From assembly GCA_009829735.1 (NCBI GenBank), contig CM020618.1, positions 20,631,346 through 20,695,345 of the forward strand: a stretch of 64,000 bases of DNA, read 5' to 3'. The stretch is from Pyropia yezoensis (lineage: Eukaryota; Rhodophyta; Bangiophyceae; Bangiales; Bangiaceae). The position numbers and the translations under genes were made by a program. Shown here piece by piece: positions 2,706-23,115 of this stretch. The notes under the pieces are model-generated. The model was not told where the DNA came from. It searched no databases and saw nothing but the letters and a program-made list of their open reading frames with translations. Numbering within the stretch: the first letter of the stretch is position 1; each line of letters starts with the position of its first letter.

Positions 2706-3316
2706 CACACCCAGTTAAGACCCCATCAGAGCGGACATACGGGTTTCCACAGGATCCGGGCCGTTCCATTGGCGGCCGGGGAACCTCTGAAAGATCTGAG
2801 CCTGGTGATTGGTGACGTCGCGGGGTGTCGGCTGTCACCCTTGAACGCTCGTAAGATCCTCGGAACTCTGCGACGTGGCGGTCTGCACCCTCGCGGGTGG
2901 TGCCCGAGAGGGGCCCTACCAGTCCATTCATGAGGCCGAACCGTAGCTGCCGCGAATCCCATCGTGAGAAAATATCCAAATGTCTTGACCTTGCACACGT
3001 CGGCCGCATCTGACTGGATGACTTGGTGCGGTTCCGAGCCGCGTCCTGTCCGGTGTGGCAGCCAAGACAACGGACAGAATTCGAGCGGGGCGCGCCGACC
3101 AAAGCCGCTCGCTTGCCCACAGCCTGCCCAGCGAGTCACGGGTCCATATCCCTGGGGCCAGTCGGGCGCCCAGATGACAGCCCGCTGGCTGGCAGCCGCG
3201 TCGGAAACATGACCCGACGGCGCTAGCGCCGCGTGCCGGCCCGCCGTGTCACCAGCGGGCGCCGCGCACCGGGGGTGAGTCTTGCCGGAGGGTCAGCACA
3301 TGAATGTAACAGGCAC

Positions 3317-6289
3317 TTATTGTCTCTCCTGTCCTAAACTCAACAGGCACGCCGTTTCAGCTTCCAGCAGCTCCTCGTAGTGGTCCTCGCCATCGGCAGG
3401 GCAGTCCTCCGTCCCCGCCCCCGCCTGTTGCCCGCCCACTCGACGCCGGTACGAATCAATCTTACGAACTGCCAGTGCCAGATTATCGGCCGCCCACTTG
3501 GTGGCTTCGTCTGTCTGCTTCTGAGCGCAGGAGGCAGACTCCAGGCGGGGCCCTTCAGAGGCTGCCCGCCCTACAGCTGTCCGCTTGTCACCTAGATTCT
3601 TGGCGACCCGGGCGCCTTCTGGCGCTGGAGCCCTTCGCGGTCCGCGGTTAAAGGCCCCGTCGCCTGGCGCCCGACTCACGGCCATACGCCGCACGTAGGC
3701 CAGGCAGCTCTCCAACAAGGTGTCAGCCGCGTAATGATTGGCGTTCTGGTTATAATGCCCATGCCACGCCTCCAGCCCTTGCTCACTGTAACGGCCCAAG
3801 CTGCCGAATAGCGAGAGGAAGTCTGGGGCGTGGCACGCCAGCACGTGCAGCTTTGGCGTGATAGACGACCACTCAAAGTGCTTTTTAAGACCGTCCACCA
3901 GCTGGGCAGCGCCACGTCGGAAGCGCGCCACGTCGTCCTTAGGAATGGTCGCGACGGTGGTCAGCACGGGCAGGAGCTCCCGCCACGTTGCGCAGGCGCC
4001 CGAGTACGCCGTGCTGACCCACTGGGGCACGCTGCCGTCCAATAGGGAGCACACCATGGACAGCCGTCGCCCAATGCGCTGGCATTGTCGCCCCTCGAAG
4101 GCCCCTCCAAAGTAGGGCTTGGGCTTGACCCCAACTGCATATCTCAGCACACGCACCAGGTCATTGGCGTACCCGCGCGCTCGCGCCAGCCCATTGCAAA
4201 AATAGACGGCCTCAATCCCCAGACAGAGGAGCCAGACCGTGACGCCCAAAACCAAATGAAGGGGCATTGGAGAGATATGGCTGGGGTCGATGATGAGGAG
4301 GGGGCGGCGCTCGATGGAGAGGTGCTGCTTCAGCGACAGCGGGGTCCCGCGACTCGCGTTTCCGCCTTCTTGATAGGCCTCGGCCATTTTCTCCATTTGC
4401 TGCCGTGTCCGCAGAGTGCCGCGTGCCTTGCTCCCCGCTTGCATATCCCCGTACTCGTCGACCAATAGGCCGATGCGATCCGTACGGCCCCGCATTGCTG
4501 TGCAGTAAATGCATGGCATGCGGCTGCTGGCCCCCATGTGGCCGCACCAGAGGGTAACGAAGCTGTAGTCCCCCGTCAGGATGAGCCGCACGGCGCGGCA
4601 CTCCCCTGAGACCTCCACCCCGTCCGTCCGCAGCGCGTCAATATCTGGAACGTACACGTCAGCCATCCTTGACAGGGCGTCATGGTCATCTTTCTTGGAC
4701 GGGAACACGCCGTAGAGAATTGTGTTCCCTCGACTGCATGGGTGCTCTTAGTTGAGGATGGAAAGGAAGGCTTTACATGAGCTTAGCAAGCCACCCTTGT
4801 CAAGTCCAAAGCACAGCTGGACGTCCCGCACCTTCGGGTCCGGCACGGCCCCCGGGCTGTCTTGCCCCTCAAATGCGGACACAGCCTTAATCTCCTTGCC
4901 GTCAGGTCCACGTGTCGCACGCTCGAGGAAGTCGCCGCCAGCCAGCAGGTCGTCAATCAGTCCTTGTACAGCCGCCCGCGGCGTGACGAGGAAGGCCCCC
5001 GCCCCGTCAGACATCACCTGGTTCCGCTCCTCCGCTTGGGCCTCGGCGAGGTCGCGTCGCAGTACTTCCCGGCTTGCCAGACCACTGGTGGCCCCACCCC
5101 TAAAAAGGCGGACACGCTGCCATAGCGTCCTGCTAATGTTGTTGTCCAGGACGAATTGCGTTTGCAGCCGAGCTGAAAGGGGCGCCAGAGCCGCCGCAGC
5201 GGGGGCCACCACCACGCCACCACTTTGGCGGGCCCGCCGGCATAAGTCCTTCACAGCCGCAATGAGGAAGCCGTGCTCAACCCCGAGCACCCTGCTGGCC
5301 GCTGCGGCAACCTCAGCGGCCCTCCACCGTTTTTGGCGCGGGCCCACGTCCACCTTGCGGGGGATGGTATAGCTCGTGTAAATCCGTGTGCTACCATTAA
5401 CAAAGGTGACCTTGATAGACCCCGGCCGCGTAGCAGCAAAGTACTCATTGACTCGTGCGGCGTCAAGCTCCCCATCCTCCTCCTGCGCCTCTCCCATTGG
5501 ACCGTCAAGACGGGATACCTCGGCCGAGGTAGAGGCTCTGCCGCACCCGCACGCTCGCGCGGAACGGCCAGTGGGGAGACGCCAAGGGAGTGGGGCCACG
5601 TCCAGGCCAGCCACTTGCACTGCCTCCAGCTGAGGAGGCGTCACGTCCACACCAGCCACCCACACTGCCTCGAGCTGAGGGGGCGCCACGTGCGCACCAG
5701 CCACCCGCACTGCCTCGCGCTGGGGGGGCGCGACGTGGAAGCCGGCAGGGCGGACGGTCCGGAGCGCCGGGCGCGGACCGCCAGACCTGTCCAGAGTTCC
5801 GCGCGTCGCCTTCTTGCGTGCTCTCAGATAGCACACCGAGCAGGTGCCTGTCGGCGCCCCACGACTGTCGGTGGGCTCCGACACGGTACACTTGCGCAAC
5901 GGCGCGGCGGCCACGAGCGCAACAGCTGCTCTCTCAGTGTTGACGGCCGACGTGACCGCGTGCCGCCATAGACGGCCGGCTCGGCTGTCTCGCACGAACG
6001 GAGACGCGCACAGGGAGCACACAAACGCCAAGGGAGGACCTGTAAACGCTTTACCAACCAAGAGAGAGGCTTGAGAGCTGAACCAATCAATCATGGTCCG
6101 TGGGAAGCGTAGATAAACGAAGCCCCGTAGCGAAAAAATAAGCAGGGGTTCCAGGGGTTCCAAGGGCACAGGGAGGATCAGAAAGCCATCCCGCCTCCGT
6201 TCAACGAGAGACCTCTTCAAGAATCGCGATGCCCCGGACCGTTTGTGCGTCTCAAAGTACGTACAGGTCTGGTCGATCTCCCGAGTCAT
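3317..6289 (-). pseudogene. Transposase of element A (DKGG/SEQGLEAWHGH type), broken by one TAA
   Basis: Two long frames (6289-4748 and 4708-3317) are in the same phase and are separated by one TAA at 4748-4750 plus 13 in-frame codons. The intact relative in element B reads a Gln codon (CAG) there, so this looks like a nonsense mutation, probably CAA to TAA. Start: ATG at 6289. Full length would be about 990 residues. Seen in order: two CxxC pairs near the N-terminus (CSLC, CSVC), probably zinc-binding; four imperfect 15-residue repeats around VAPPQLEAVQV; the shared SGLASREVLR; FGLDKGG; GDYSFV followed by MPCIYC; EYGDMQAGSKA; HVLACHAPDFLSLFGS; and SEQGLEAWHGHYN. The acidic residues of DKGG, GDYSF and SEQ..E are candidate DDE catalytic positions (inference). 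The C-terminus is helical (VRKIDSYRRR). Confidence 0.8.
5595..5755 (-). repeat. 45-bp coding minisatellite in transposase A
   Basis: Four imperfect 45-bp units encode the 15-residue repeat AG(F/A/V/L)(H/D)V(A/T)PPQ(R/L)EAV(R/W/Q)V. The element B transposase has no equivalent, so it is a lineage-specific expansion. Confidence 0.75.
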
Positions 6290-17136: not shown

Positions 17137-17535
17137 ATGGCAGCGGCGGCGGCGCCCCCTCCCGGCCGCGCGGCCCCGTCCTTGTTGCCACCCCGCCCGC
17201 CGACGGCGGGCGCGGGCGCCTCCCCCGCCCCCTTTGCAGCGACCGCCCCCACCGCCACCCCCACCTTCCTCCCGCCCCCGCCGCTGCCGTGCTGCCGACG
17301 GCCCCTGCAGGCCGCCGGCGTCGCCGGCGCCGCGCCCGGCCAGTGGCGGCGGCTGCGGCGGCGGCCGCCGTCGCCGGCGCCCGCCGCCGTGCCGCGGCGC
17401 GTGGGTGGGACGGGCCGGCGGCGGGTGGCCAGGCCGCCCCCGCCGGGCGGGCGCCGGTGGGTAGCGGTGGCCACCGCCGCTGCCAACTCCACCGGCGGCG
17501 GCGGCAGCAGTGGCGGTGGCAACGGTGGCGACAGA

Positions 17536-17589
<54 letters not shown>

Positions 17590-19746
17590 AGGGGGAGTGG
17601 TGGGGGCAGCGTCCCCCCCCCTGCCCTTTGCCTGTCCCCTGCCGCCGCCGAGGCGGCCGCCCACCTGGCGGCCGCACCCAACCAGGCCACCCGGCTGGCG
17701 CGGCTGGTCCAGCTGGGCGACCGCCTCCCCCCCCCCCCTGCCGCGGCGTCGACGGCCTCTGCCGGCTGGTCGCCGCTCACCCCCGTCCCCGGCTGCACCG
17801 CCATTGTGCGCGTGGCGGTGCGGCTGGTGCCGGCCGCCGCCGGCGGCAGCGGCCGCGTGGGTGGGCCCGCCGACGGCGGCGGCGGTGGCTCCGCGGCCGT
17901 CCCACCACTGGTGATCCAGGCGGCAGGGGAAGCGGACGCGCGCCTCTCCCGTGGCCTCGTCGCGCTGGTGCTGGCCGCCATTGACGGGGAGGGGGTGGGT
18001 TTGCTGCTGCCCGACCCGTCGGGGGGGCACGGCGGCCCGTGTTTGACCGCCCCGGCTGTAGCGGCCGCAGCGGGGCTGGACGTGGCCGCTGCGGGCCTGC
18101 GCTCCCGCCTCAACGGCCTTGGCGCAGTGGTAGAGACGCTGACAGGGCTGGTCGCCTCCGCCGTGGCCGCGGCCAACCAGAGGGGTGTGGCGGGGGGCAA
18201 AGCGGGTGAGGGGGGGGCCTCTGCGACGGTCTTGGCCGCGCTGACGGGCGCATCGGAGGGGGGGGTGCCGCGGCCGACCGCTCCTGCCGACTCGTCTGCT
18301 GTCCCTGGCGGCGTGGTCGCTGCCGCCGCGACCGCCGCCTCGCCCACCCCCCGCCCCGTCATGGACGGCACTCTGTGGACATCCCGTCAAGGCACAGACG
18401 TGGCGGTGCTCCTGTCGGGGGGCGTCGACTCGTCCGTGGCCCTCCGGCGGCTGCTCGACGCGGGCCACGCGGTGACGCCCTACTACCTCAAGATCTGGCT
18501 GGCGGACGAGCTCGCCCACCTGGGCGCCGCGTGCCCGTGGGAGGAGGACATTGCCGCCGCGAGCGCGGTGGCCGCCCAGGCGGGCCTGCGCCTCCACACC
18601 CTCCCCCTCCAGGCCGAGTACTGGGACCGCGTCGTCACGTCCACGGTCGCCGAGGCGCGGGCGGGGCGGACGCCCAACCCCGACGTCCTGTGCAACGGGC
18701 GGATTAAGTTTGGGGCGTTTTACGACGCCGTTGGCGGGGGGGGGGGGCACGCCCGCGTCGCGACCGGCCACTATGCGCGCACGGGGGGGGGGGGGCCGGG
18801 CCGGGGGGGGGACCTCGTCGACGGTCTGGACGGCGTGGCCGGCCCCAGCGGGGCCGCGGCGGGGAGGGAGGGTTGGGCTGGTGACGCGGCCGCCGCCCCC
18901 GCTGTCGAGGACGGCGGCCCCGTGCGGCTGCTCGTGTCGGCCGACGCGGCCAAGGACCAGACCTACTTCCTCTCCCACCTGACGCAGACGCAGCTGGCCA
19001 AGGCGGCCTTCCCCATTGGGGGCATGCCCAAGCCCGCCGTCCGCGCGGCGGCGGCGGCGTATGGGCTCCCCAACAGCTCCCGGCCCGACTCGCAGGGCAT
19101 CTGCTTCCTGGGCAAGCTCAAGTTTGACGCCTTCCTCGGCCACCACCTGGGCACCCGCCCCGGGCCGCTCGTCGAGTACGAGACCGGCACCCGCCTGGGC
19201 ACCCACCGGGGCTACTGGTTCTACACGCCGGGTCAGCGGCGGGGGCTGGGCCTGTCGGGCGGGCCGTGGCACGTCGTGTGGAAGGGGGTGCAGGAGAATG
19301 TGGTGTACGTCAGCCGGGCGTATGGGGAGGTGGCGGGGGTGGGGGTGGCGTTTTCGTTTGGGGGGGCCTCCTGGGTAGCCGCCCCCGGGGGGGGGGGGGC
19401 GCCGGGCGCGGGCGCTCCGGCCGCCGACGGGGTGGGGTGGCGGGCGGGGGTCAAGACGCGCCACGGCCCGCGGATGGGCGCCGGGGAGGTGGTGCTGTCC
19501 GCCGGCGGCACGGGGGGGGTGGTGACGCTCGACGCCCGCGACGGGGGGCTGGCGCCGGGCCAGTACGCGGCCTTTTACGTGGACGGCGCCTGCCTTGGCG
19601 CGGGCGTCATTGAGGCTGACCTGGGGGTCCTGGGCGGGGGGCTCTTGGGGGGGGGGTTGGGGGGGGGGTGGCGCCCAAGAAGCTGCAGGCCCACTACTTT
19701 TAAGGCGGGATGGGGGGGGAGTGGGGAGGGCCCAAGCTCACACTGA
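17137..19746 (+). CDS. SufE-MnmA fusion: sulfur acceptor domain joined to plastid-type tRNA 2-thiouridylase
   Basis: A single exon of 869 residues from an ATG in CCATGG context. Residues 1-130 are Ala/Pro/Arg-rich without acids, like a plastid transit peptide; a Gly run follows. Residues about 160-345 are a SufE-like domain: RLARLVQLGDRLPPP, GCTAIVRV with candidate persulfide Cys220, GEADARLSRGLVALVL and LRSRLNGLGAVVETL match the family pattern around GCxS, SDA..xGL and SRxNGL. Residues about 409-850 are MnmA: PP-loop SGGVDSSVA (427), KIWLADELAHLG, TPNPDVLCNGRIKFG (Cys519), GHYAR, AKDQTYFLSHL, DSQGICFLG (Cys656) and FYTPGQRRGLGL. Both catalytic cysteines are present. The KIW..DELAHLG and GYWFY wording is that of plant/plastid MnmA. 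Role: ATP-dependent 2-thiolation of U34 in tRNA Lys/Glu/Gln. Low-complexity inserts lie near 18735-18930. The exact C-terminus sits in G runs and could shift. Confidence 0.9.
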
Positions 19747-20000: not shown

Positions 20001-20948
20001 TCACACCGACGTTGGTGGATGTAACCGGGAACTCCCGCCCTCCTCGCTAGTGGTGTCCCCCTCTGCTAAACCCGTTCGGACGTCGCCATCCGACTCCACC
20101 CCCCCCCCCGCGAGGGCCTTGCCAGGCGACGCCGGCAGCGGGGGCTCCCCCGCCACGTGGTGCACAACCCCCCCCGCCGCCGCCGCAGCGGCCGCGGCCG
20201 CGGCGGCAGCGGCCGTGGCGGCCGACTCCTCCACCGCCCCGTTGTCTCGGGCGGCGTCGCCGTTGCCGCCACCGCCGCCGTCGCCGCCCAGGGTGTCAAG
20301 GTACCGGCCGGCGGCGGCGCGGAGGCCGCTCACCCCCGGGCCGTCGGTGGTCGCCCCATAGGCGCCCACCAGCCACGCGCAAAAGCGGCCGACGCACCCT
20401 GGGTAGAGGGCGTAGAATGACTGCAAGTTGTCCACAATGGCCTTCTCCACGTACCCGCCCAGGTACGGCACCCGCACGGTTGCCGTGCCGTCCACAACGT
20501 GGGCACACACGTCCGCCGCGTCGGTTGTTGGGGCGGCCACGACCGCCGCATCCGACTCTGGGGTGGGCACCGCATCCGCCGCGGGCCCCGGCACGATGGA
20601 GAGGGACCCCGACGTGGACGACAGGGCAGTGAGGAAGGAGGGGGTGATTTTGAAGTCGAGCGTGTAGGGGGGCACCGTCGCCGACCACGTCTGGTGGTCT
20701 GTCACTGCAAAGGCGGTAGAGCCGACGAGCGGGCGGAGCATGTCGGGGCACGCCACAGTCGCCGGGATGTACGACTGCGTGCGCGTCAGCGTGTCCGGCG
20801 TGGAGTCGTGCGCCACGGGGGGCGTGGAAGTGATGGAATTGAGCAGGTGGTCGTCCACAATCCACTTGAGAAAGGCGGGGGTATCCCGCAGTGCCCAAAA
20901 GAGGTCTGCCGGCAGCGGCAGCGTGCACTCAACCCGAAAGGCTCCCAT
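20001..20948 (-). CDS. START-like/SRPBCC (DUF2505-type) protein
   Basis: The chosen ATG at 20948 has a strong CCACCATGG context and starts directly at the domain (MGAFRVECTLPLPADLFWAL), giving 315 residues. The pattern is that of the START/SRPBCC helix-grip fold, specifically the DUF2505-like group: an initial beta strand, then FLKWIVDDHLLNS, TWSATVPPYTLDFKITPS, and the closing VRVPYLGGYVEKAIVDNLQ helix. Such proteins bind lipids or other hydrophobic ligands; the ligand is unknown. The last 80 residues are Gly/Ala-rich and acidic. The phase stays open upstream, and an ATG at 21323 would add 125 residues of Arg/Pro/Ser-rich sequence that could be an organelle targeting peptide, so the N-terminus is the main uncertainty. 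Its 3' end lies about 250 bp from that of the convergent SufE-MnmA gene. Confidence 0.75.
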   Translation of the reverse strand: MGAFRVECTLPLPADLFWALRDTPAFLKWIVDDHLLNSITSTPPVAHDSTPDTLTRTQSYIPATVACPDMLRPLVGSTAFAVTDHQTWSATVPPYTLDFKITPSFLTALSSTSGSLSIVPGPAADAVPTPESDAAVVAAPTTDAADVCAHVVDGTATVRVPYLGGYVEKAIVDNLQSFYALYPGCVGRFCAWLVGAYGATTDGPGVSGLRAAAGRYLDTLGGDGGGGGNGDAARDNGAVEESAATAAAAAAAAAAAAAGGVVHHVAGEPPLPASPGKALAGGGVESDGDVRTGLAEGDTTSEEGGSSRLHPPTSV

Positions 20949-22148
20949 GGTGGGCGCGACCCCCCCGCGGCGGCGGCGGCGGCGGCGTGACGCAGACCCC
21001 GGCGCTGCCGGGGTTGCAACCGCCTGCCGGGCGCAGCGGCGGTAGCGATCCCCCAGCGCCGCCGACGCTGGTGGCCCCGCCGGCAGCAGCGGGGTGTGGC
21101 GGCACAAAGACCCGGCGGGCGGCAGCAGGGCACGGGTGCCAACGGGGAGGGCCGCGACAAAGGCGGCAGCAGCCTCTGTCGGCGGTGGACGCGGCAACAG
21201 GCACTGGCGAGAGGAAGCGACGGAGGGGACGGCGGTCGGCAGCACAGGCGTGCGGCGGGTGCCCGTACTACAGGAGGTTGGGACGGGGGCCGGAGAAGAC
21301 GCCGCCAGAGAGCGCGGGCGCATGGTGCGTGGGCGTGGCCCGGGCGGTCGGCACGTCGGGGCGGCGGAGGCTGGGGAGAGGGTGCGTGGGGGGGGGGTGT
21401 CCACCTTCGCGCCGCAATGGGCGGAGAGGGTCCTGGATGCGGGCGGGCCCGTCCCCCCACGGTGACCGCCCGCCCAAGTCACAACTATCAGCTGCTCTCC
21501 TGCGCCGCCCACAAAACCCGCCCAACCAATGGTGCAGCCGCAAAGGCCAACGTGGGTGGCCGTGCAACGGGTCGTTTCAGACGCGGAACCGTCTTCCTTT
21601 TTGGCGCCCCGCCCGGACGGGCCGCCCCCGCGAGGGATGCAGACGGGGCCTACAAAAAAAGGTGCTGCACCGCAGCGTGCATCGCTGGGCTGTAGGGGTG
21701 AAAATGGTTGGTTGGGGTCCTCGGTCCACGCCCGCCTCTCCAGCAAACGGCCATGGCCTGCAGGCTTGCATGTGCAAATGCACCGAGCAGGCACTCCACC
21801 AGCCACACACTTTGTTTGGCGGAAGGAAGCACGTTTCGCTCCAAGATCGAGGGTGGCCAACGCAGTCACATTAATTATCGGGCATTGACTCAAGTACTAA
21901 CAACCTTTAAACGCAAACAAACAGCATGAACTGCCCAATACTTGCCCCGTACCGTATCCAATGCGGGTGTGCCACGTGGACAGTACGGTCGCCGGTCGTC
22001 GCAGCGGGATCCGGGCGTGTCCTCGACGTCGGCGCAGGCTCTTGAACACTGTCTCAGCCATTGCCGACCGATACCGCGCGACTCTGCCCTGTTCGCACCC
22101 CCCCCCCCTTTACGTCCCTCCGTTCGGTGCACCAACTCGTTCTCAGTC
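20949..22148. other. Divergent promoter region between START-like and NAC-alpha genes
   Basis: 1.2 kb between two divergently transcribed genes. The first 375 bp could encode an N-terminal extension of the START-like protein. The remainder (21324-22148) becomes AT-richer towards 21900 and shows no other gene. It probably holds both promoters. Confidence 0.5.
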
Positions 22149-23115
22149 ATGACGCGCGATGAGGCGGCCGTTGCGGCTGAGTCGTCTGACGATGACGTGC
22201 CTGGGCTTGTCGAGGACGCCGCTCCGCAGGCGGCCGACAAGGCCGCCCCGGAAGGGGATGCCGGTACGCGTCGAGTGAGGCCGTTGGATTCTGATGGATT
22301 GGTCATCTCGGGGATCTGGGTCGCTGTGAACGGTGCTGTGGGGCACATGGCTTTTGGACTGCAGTATTGCATCTGCGCTCCTTCGTTAACTCCGTGCGTG
22401 TGTTTGGCCATCTCGCCTGCTGTTTACGGACTCGCCCCTGACATTTTGAGTTTCTTATGTCTCTATGACTGCTCTCTGTCCTGCTTTGTATAACTCCTGC
22501 ATGTCTTTTTTTTTACGTCGGTCAGCCGCGGCCGGCGGCGGTGCTGGGGGTGAGAAGAACTACTCGCGCGGGGAGAAGAAGGCGCGCAAGGCGCTCTCCA
22601 AGCTGTCCCTCAAGCCTGTTGCCAACGTGTCGCGCGTGACGCTGAAGAAGAACAAGAATGTTCTGTTTGTGATTGATGGCGCGGACGTTTACAAGTCGCC
22701 CACGTCGGACACGTACGTGGTGTTTGGGGAGGCCAAAATTGAGGACCTTGCCGCCAAGGCCGCGGCCAAGGCCGCCCAGCAGCACAAGATGTCTTCCCAG
22801 ATGGCTATGGCACCGCCGCCCTCGGCGGGTGCCGTGGCGGGCAGCGGCGCCACTGGCCGTGTGCGTGGGGGTGACTTCCCCGCTGCCGCGGCGGGTACGG
22901 CGGGTGTGGCCAACAAGGCCGCCGACGCGTCGGCGGGCGCCGCCGATGGTGGTGGTGGGGATGATGACGATGAACCGCTGGACGAGACTGGCGTGGAGGC
23001 CAAGGACATTGAGCTGGTCATGCAGCAGGCGGACGTGTCACGTGCCAAGGCGGTCAAGGCGCTCCTGACCAACGATGGGGACATTGTCAATGCCATCATG
23101 GCGCTGACAATGTAG
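22149..23115 (+). CDS. NACA: Nascent polypeptide-associated complex subunit alpha
   Basis: Exon 1 is 22149-22263 and exon 2 is 22526-23115, across a 262-bp intron (GTACGC donor, GTCAG acceptor after a T run). The join splits an Ala codon and gives 234 residues. An acidic N-terminus ([13 protein letters not shown]) is followed by the NAC domain at about 50-115 ([58 protein letters not shown]), an Ala-rich acidic linker, and the C-terminal UBA domain ([20 protein letters not shown]). This is the classical eukaryotic layout. The protein pairs with the beta subunit on ribosomes, shields emerging chains and limits inappropriate ER targeting. The Ala/Gly-rich linker makes it slightly longer than animal or plant relatives. 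Nothing indicates pseudogenisation. Confidence 0.95.

Follow-up and report, generated by a model that had tools for sequence, protein, structure and literature searches.

Our analysis of the window, a 64,000-nucleotide stretch of the Pyropia yezoensis genome to which all coordinates below refer unless a locus is named, points to a nuclear gene for a single protein in which a SufE-like domain precedes MnmA. The reading we favor, with a probability of about 60%, is that this protein is targeted to the plastid and acts there as a sulfur relay, in which SufS would load Cys220 of the SufE-like domain and the sulfur would then pass in cis to MnmA, a function that we predict from the sequence. The anatomy is that of one frame carrying both domains and their key residues, with a predicted SufE fold, in a genome that encodes SufS and in which an intron-blind search found neither TusA nor TusE. 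The preliminary description of the locus knew of no SufE-MnmA fusion; this was wrong, as such fusions have been reported from Toxoplasma (2022, PMC9420914) and Plasmodium (2023, PMC10219651). The architecture itself has therefore already been described, and what is new, as far as the literature searched shows, is that a primary-plastid red alga has it.

MnmA is supplied with sulfur by different routes: the Tus relay from IscS in Escherichia coli, a dedicated desulfurase in Bacillus subtilis, and SufS in the apicoplast, for which the SufE-like domain of apicomplexan MnmA was offered as one possibility of sulfur supply (PMC10219651). Finding SufE-MnmA in a free-living, primary-plastid red alga makes it less likely that the arrangement is a peculiarity of parasites and yields a testable hypothesis of its origin, namely in the red plastid before secondary endosymbiosis. 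The algal protein also provides a non-pathogen system in which the cis relay could be probed via a single cysteine.

The SufE-MnmA reading frame

On the plus strand, positions 17137-19746 form a single frame of 869 codons without a stop. Its first in-frame ATG is at 17137, and the open stretch upstream, from 16903, lacks any ATG. No stop separates the SufE and MnmA parts, so the earlier statement that both lie in one frame holds. The openness of the frame is nonetheless little proof, since the antisense strand of this G+C-rich DNA has an open frame too, 819 aa long; the evidence is homology. Codon position 2 is lowest in G+C in every 300-base step from 17437 on, from the SufE part into MnmA. 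It is not lowest in the steps at 17137 and 17287, and 5' of the ATG the codon-position G+C is irregular and lower. The N-terminus had also been called transit-like, with which its composition agrees: residues 1-159 are of low complexity and poor in acidic residues, with none in residues 1-60 and one, against 15 basic residues, in 61-159. Targeting to the plastid is predicted from this acid-poor composition. The features of the gene are collected in Table 1.

Table 1. Features of the SufE-MnmA gene in the window.
Feature	Position	Strand	Basis or remark
Whole SufE-MnmA ORF	17137..19746	+	869 aa + stop, no intron needed
N-terminal 159 residues, low-complexity, plastid-transit-like	17137..17613	+	composition
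SufE-like domain (approximately residues 170-345), its loops bearing Gly/Ala-rich insertions	17644..18171	+	PF02657, local profile, fold match
Cys220, candidate persulfide-accepting cysteine (GCTAIVRV)	17794..17796	+	aligned with invariant SufE cysteine, E. coli Cys51
Arg324 of SRLNGL, candidate counterpart of Arg119 in E. coli SufE	18106..18108	+	profile alignment
Ala/Gly-rich linker, residues 346-408	18172..18360	+	in-frame stop absent
Internal Met409, possible alternative start giving MnmA without SufE or targeting sequence	18361..18363	+	
HUP (ATP-pyrophosphatase) domain of MnmA, residues 421-660, with PP-loop at 427 (SGGVDSS)	18397..19116	+	PF03054
Cys466, first cysteine of C-DxxC-C (D-type) pattern	18532..18534	+	
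Asp516-x-x-Cys519, catalytic DxxC	18682..18693	+	alignment
Cys656 (GICFLG), candidate equivalent of E. coli MnmA Cys199	19102..19104	+	alignment
Central PRC-barrel of MnmA with its C-terminal barrel, residues 665-825	19129..19611	+	PF20259, PF20258

The MnmA half

By its domains and motifs the MnmA part is unambiguous, complete and of D-type. The HUP domain (PF03054, E 9.2e-58) and both barrels (PF20259, E 8.4e-20; PF20258, E 8.7e-8) exceed their Pfam cut-offs, and the PP-loop, Cys519 and Cys656 are present; the preliminary description, which had called MnmA complete, is upheld by this HMM check. Among the NCBIfam models, TIGR00420 scored above its cut-off (279.6 bits against 236.95) and NF001138 below (279.9 against 284). 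Gly/Ala-rich insertions break up the MnmA domain as well in the alignment. Cys656 presumably corresponds to Cys199 of E. coli MnmA, an equivalence that we take from the E. coli motif. The role of Cys199 in the E. coli enzyme is treated in PMC11784392, and the D-type pattern, C-DxxC-C, in both that paper and PMC10219651.

For a tree of MnmA, loci were collected with peptide patterns of the window protein, and this sampling is biased because the patterns came from the very protein under study; the best 80 of 110 loci were kept, and they include neither cyanobacteria nor other algae. The tree has 61 rows, the window and 60 of the 80 loci, the other 20 being left out as their best stop-to-stop frame fell outside 330-460 aa. 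The MnmA half (18361-19653) groups with 100/100 support with sequences from a Peregrinibacteria and a Latescibacterota MAG (L012, 234-1289, and L013, 2995-4050), to which it is about 50% identical and with which it has the block YLKIWL.DEL..LG..CPWEED in common. The remaining 58 bacterial MnmA sequences stand apart from these three. This grouping is a hint of a separate type of MnmA with some bacterial source, and no donor of the gene is indicated by these 61 rows.

Evidence for the SufE-like domain

The SufE similarity is low, yet by profile comparison it is far above chance. The SufE family model named in the preliminary description, PF02657 (IPR003808), scored 22.5 bits (E 1e-4) on the whole protein, under the 27-bit gathering score, and 28.9 bits (E 1.1e-6), over it, on residues 160-385 taken alone. 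In a search of the alga's own genome with PF02657 the MnmA-fused domain was absent from the list, which held the other SufE gene alone. No SufE match over the cut-off was obtained with NCBIfam, where only a sub-threshold match to CsdE appeared (E 0.075), and phmmer against PDB sequences did not find SufE. As these searches were weak or empty, a local profile was built from 40 sequences, 39 bacterial SufE and the genome's own SufE.

Against this profile the fused domain reached 21.1 bits. The match runs through three collinear blocks: the first, GC220TAI and the helix that precedes the cysteine, scored 5.1 bits, the second, around DARLSRGLVALVLAAIDG, 11.9 bits, and the third, SRLNGLGAVVE, 0.0 when taken alone. 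The control comprised 15,000 shuffles, namely 5,000 global, 5,000 in blocks of 10 and 5,000 of the reversed sequence (including one plain reversal). Scored matches arose in 5,822 of the 15,000, with a maximum of 7.8 bits against 21.1 for the real domain. A chance match to Gly/Ala-rich sequence was accordingly rejected, none of the 15,000 exceeding 7.8 bits. When the window was translated in six frames and all segments of 30 aa or more were compared with SufE, this ORF ranked top at 14.7 bits and the runner-up scored 2.1. Elsewhere in the genome the fused domain has three further matches: two weak ones, at E 0.0053 and 0.0065, are both interrupted by a stop, and the other has an E of 0.52.

The motifs first noted here, Cys220 in GCTAIVRV and SRLNGL at 323 with its RxNGL motif, are both found. 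In SufE folds Cys51 and Arg119 (E. coli numbering) are universally conserved according to PMC11408855, which also describes both residues of the E. coli protein as required for transfer and release. The counterpart of Arg119 is Arg324 by profile alignment and Arg322 in a three-row MAFFT alignment. In a sample of 27 of the 39 bacterial SufE sequences six columns are invariant; the fused domain keeps four of them (the cysteine, the arginine, G87 and G129), and two are changed, W25 to Gln and Y29 to Leu. That the SufE part has Gly/Ala-rich insertions is no argument against it, as the clearly intact MnmA domain carries comparable ones.

In a model guided by SufE sequences, residues of about 170-345 match the SufE fold. 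The model, from a three-row alignment of which two rows are SufE sequences, has a mean pLDDT of 67 and a pTM of 0.65. Its Foldseek matches at ranks 1-16 are all SufE or CsdE, 14 of the 16 at E of 0.001 or less, with TM-scores normalized to the target of 0.59-0.79. Folding of the single sequence was poor (pLDDT 45.5, pTM 0.29), with a similar order of helices and strands, so the fold evidence is that of the alignment-guided model. Given a profile score far above the shuffles, the retained Cys220 and arginine, and the fold match, the SufE assignment made in the preliminary description is the best-supported reading of this region.

Sulfur-transfer genes elsewhere in the genome

The genome searched comprises 107.5 Mb in 11 contigs. 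Twelve matches to the phycobilisome linker family and one to the phycobilisome family fit a red alga, together with a SufE gene that bears an intron. It encodes its own SufS (547.7 bits, over the NCBIfam cut-off) and, as its canonical plastid-type SufE, a separate SufE-BolA gene of two exons (L006, 1826-3099), the second of which matches SufE at 84.8 bits and BolA at 88.9 bits. Of the Tus proteins the search covered TusA (PF01206) and DsrC/TusE (PF04358), and it gave no match in six frames; small split Tus genes could escape, since such searches are intron-blind. SufE-BolA carries GRNNGF. The fused domain has SRLNGL, which is nearer to RSNGL, the consensus among the sampled bacterial sequences; it may not have been copied from SUFE1 recently.

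A second MnmA-like gene lies 1.7 Mb away (L007, about 2969-3741), and no SufE was found around it. Its blocks fall in two reading frames (tblastn +2 and +1), which suggests an intron or a frame problem. It is possibly the mitochondrial Mtu1.

Comparison with known fusions

The closest parallels are apicomplexan. Toxoplasma gondii MnmA (TGGT1_309110) resembles the algal protein in that it is encoded by a nuclear gene and its SufE domain, at 519-589, is N-terminal to the MnmA (tRNA_Me_trans) domains; it was placed in the apicoplast by endogenous tagging (PMC9420914), the algal protein being predicted to be plastid. It differs in residing in a secondary plastid and in being much longer, with its MnmA region at 807-1598 (PMC10219651), and is likened here by its description. 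In Plasmodium falciparum MnmA (PF3D7_1019800), also likened by description, a 421-aa N-terminal end contains a SufE-like structural domain, and the same transfer from SufS through the SufE-like domain to MnmA was proposed (PMC10219651). There, however, SufE was found by structure modelling, and the organelle is the apicoplast of a non-photosynthetic parasite. Plastid SufS is reported to supply the sulfur for tRNA thiolation in P. falciparum, and a figure supplement of the same paper includes the N-terminal regions of MnmA from Babesia microti, Theileria annulata, T. gondii and Eimeria tenella (PMC10219651).

Other SufE proteins differ in their partners. Plastid SufE of the Arabidopsis type is fused as well, but to BolA (SUFE1) or NadA (SUFE3) and not to MnmA. 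E. coli SufE and CsdE have the fold, the cysteine and the arginine in common with the algal domain but are stand-alone proteins, and E. coli MnmA receives sulfur from IscS through TusA-BCD-E (PMC10219651, PMC11784392). In bacterial SufS-SufE fusions (L097, L139) SufE also lies in cis with a partner from the same sulfur route, but is joined to the donor desulfurase rather than to the acceptor enzyme. One of these (L097, 1477-3201; Aminotran_5 and SufE), from the same genome as the Chromatium okenii locus L038, is, of the 40 sequences compared, the one that the fused SufE domain matches best singly (E 2e-13).

In the open-access papers searched, no report of SufE-MnmA in red algae was found. A 2021 algal survey distinguishes SUFE1, SUFE2 and SUFE3 types, with Galdieria as the red alga of its SUF table (PMC8003979). 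The words MnmA and thiouridylase do not occur in its main text, and the present protein seems to add a type of SufE fusion to those named there.

Proposed relay and alternatives

We infer plastid import, SufS binding, persulfide transfer and activity along the following lines. A nuclear gene of the red alga would give rise to one plastid-targeted protein, whose SufE-like domain would dock on SufS, the cysteine desulfurase of the plastid, and accept a persulfide on Cys220. Swinging on the flexible Ala/Gly linker, it would then hand the sulfur in cis to the MnmA domain, either to Cys656 or to an Fe-S cluster, the latter being a disputed model (PMC11784392). MnmA would adenylate U34 with ATP and then form 2-thiouridine in the Lys, Glu and Gln tRNAs of the plastid. 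Two results from P. falciparum support this relay indirectly. The apicoplast is destroyed when SufS or MnmA is lost but not when stand-alone SufE is, which fits a SufE built into MnmA, and B. subtilis MnmA without its own desulfurase replaced the native protein in only one of four attempts (PMC10219651).

The same organism provides the case for the main rival, in which the SufE-like domain would only dock and activate: it would bind SufS and hold MnmA close by, and the sulfur would go straight from SufS to Cys656, comparable to the transfer by YrvO in B. subtilis. The authors of PMC10219651, who knew of the SufE-like domain, judged the direct transfer from desulfurase to MnmA of B. subtilis to be most similar. 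A line with B. subtilis MnmA beside the parasite SufS could be obtained, and it grew equally to one supplied in addition with the desulfurase of B. subtilis (PMC10219651). It is this equal growth and the authors' view that make direct transfer the main rival; the low similarity of the algal domain and its loss of two of six invariant columns agree with it as well. However, the cysteine and an arginine, which E. coli SufE needs in transfer and release, were kept while the rest of the domain drifted, and we consider a docking role alone unlikely.

A SufE part that is translated but has degenerated and plays no role in sulfur transfer, with MnmA alone fed by another route, would account for the weak profile scores and for the heavy Gly/Ala-rich insertions. 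Such insertions also interrupt the intact MnmA domain, though, and a remnant would hardly be expected to keep three collinear blocks with Cys220 and Arg324 or to have its architecture shared, as published descriptions indicate, by T. gondii and P. falciparum; we judge it improbable. That the two parts do not form one protein is a very improbable reading, in which MnmA would start at Met409 (18361) and the upstream frame would be a chance opening or a separate transcript. Met409 does directly precede the MnmA domain, and the 819-aa antisense frame illustrates that long chance frames exist in G+C-rich DNA. Against this, the SufE homology far above chance lies in the same frame, no stop intervenes, the coding-like G+C pattern spans both parts, and a start at 409 would leave out the transit peptide.

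Origin of the fusion

The apicomplexan plastid is of red-algal descent. As the fusion occurs in a primary-plastid alga and in apicomplexans, inheritance with the plastid is the simplest explanation and a probable one, and the algal copy suggests that it predates the apicoplast and reached the parasites with the red-algal plastid. Independent fusion in the red alga and in apicomplexans is possible. The wider proposal, that the relay originated in the red-algal ancestor or earlier, came to apicomplexans with the red plastid, and replaces Tus such that a SUF-only organelle could thiolate its tRNAs without stand-alone SufE, has in our estimate an even chance of being correct.

No bacterial ancestry of the fusion was found: SufE and MnmA were neither fused nor neighboring at the bacterial loci compared. 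No SufE ORF lay beside MnmA at the best 80 of 110 MnmA loci (flanks up to 3 kb), and no MnmA beside SufE at 43 SufE loci (flanks up to 1.5-2 kb). By Pfam, the six longest bacterial SufE frames from 51 places encode SufE alone (L096, L104, L113, L138) or SufS-SufE (L097, L139), without MnmA. SufE was present in 8 of 18 and in 40 of 100 bacterial genomes searched, the latter search giving 42 places, of which 30 and a further 2 were taken as loci. In viral contigs the fused protein and one SufE protein had no match, and a SufE alignment matched two loci.

As to the surroundings of the gene, its downstream neighbor on the opposite strand (20001-21893, minus) has a DUF2505 domain (E 1.7e-9), and positions 22465-23115 on the plus strand encode a nascent polypeptide-associated complex alpha-like protein with NAC and HYPK-type UBA domains.
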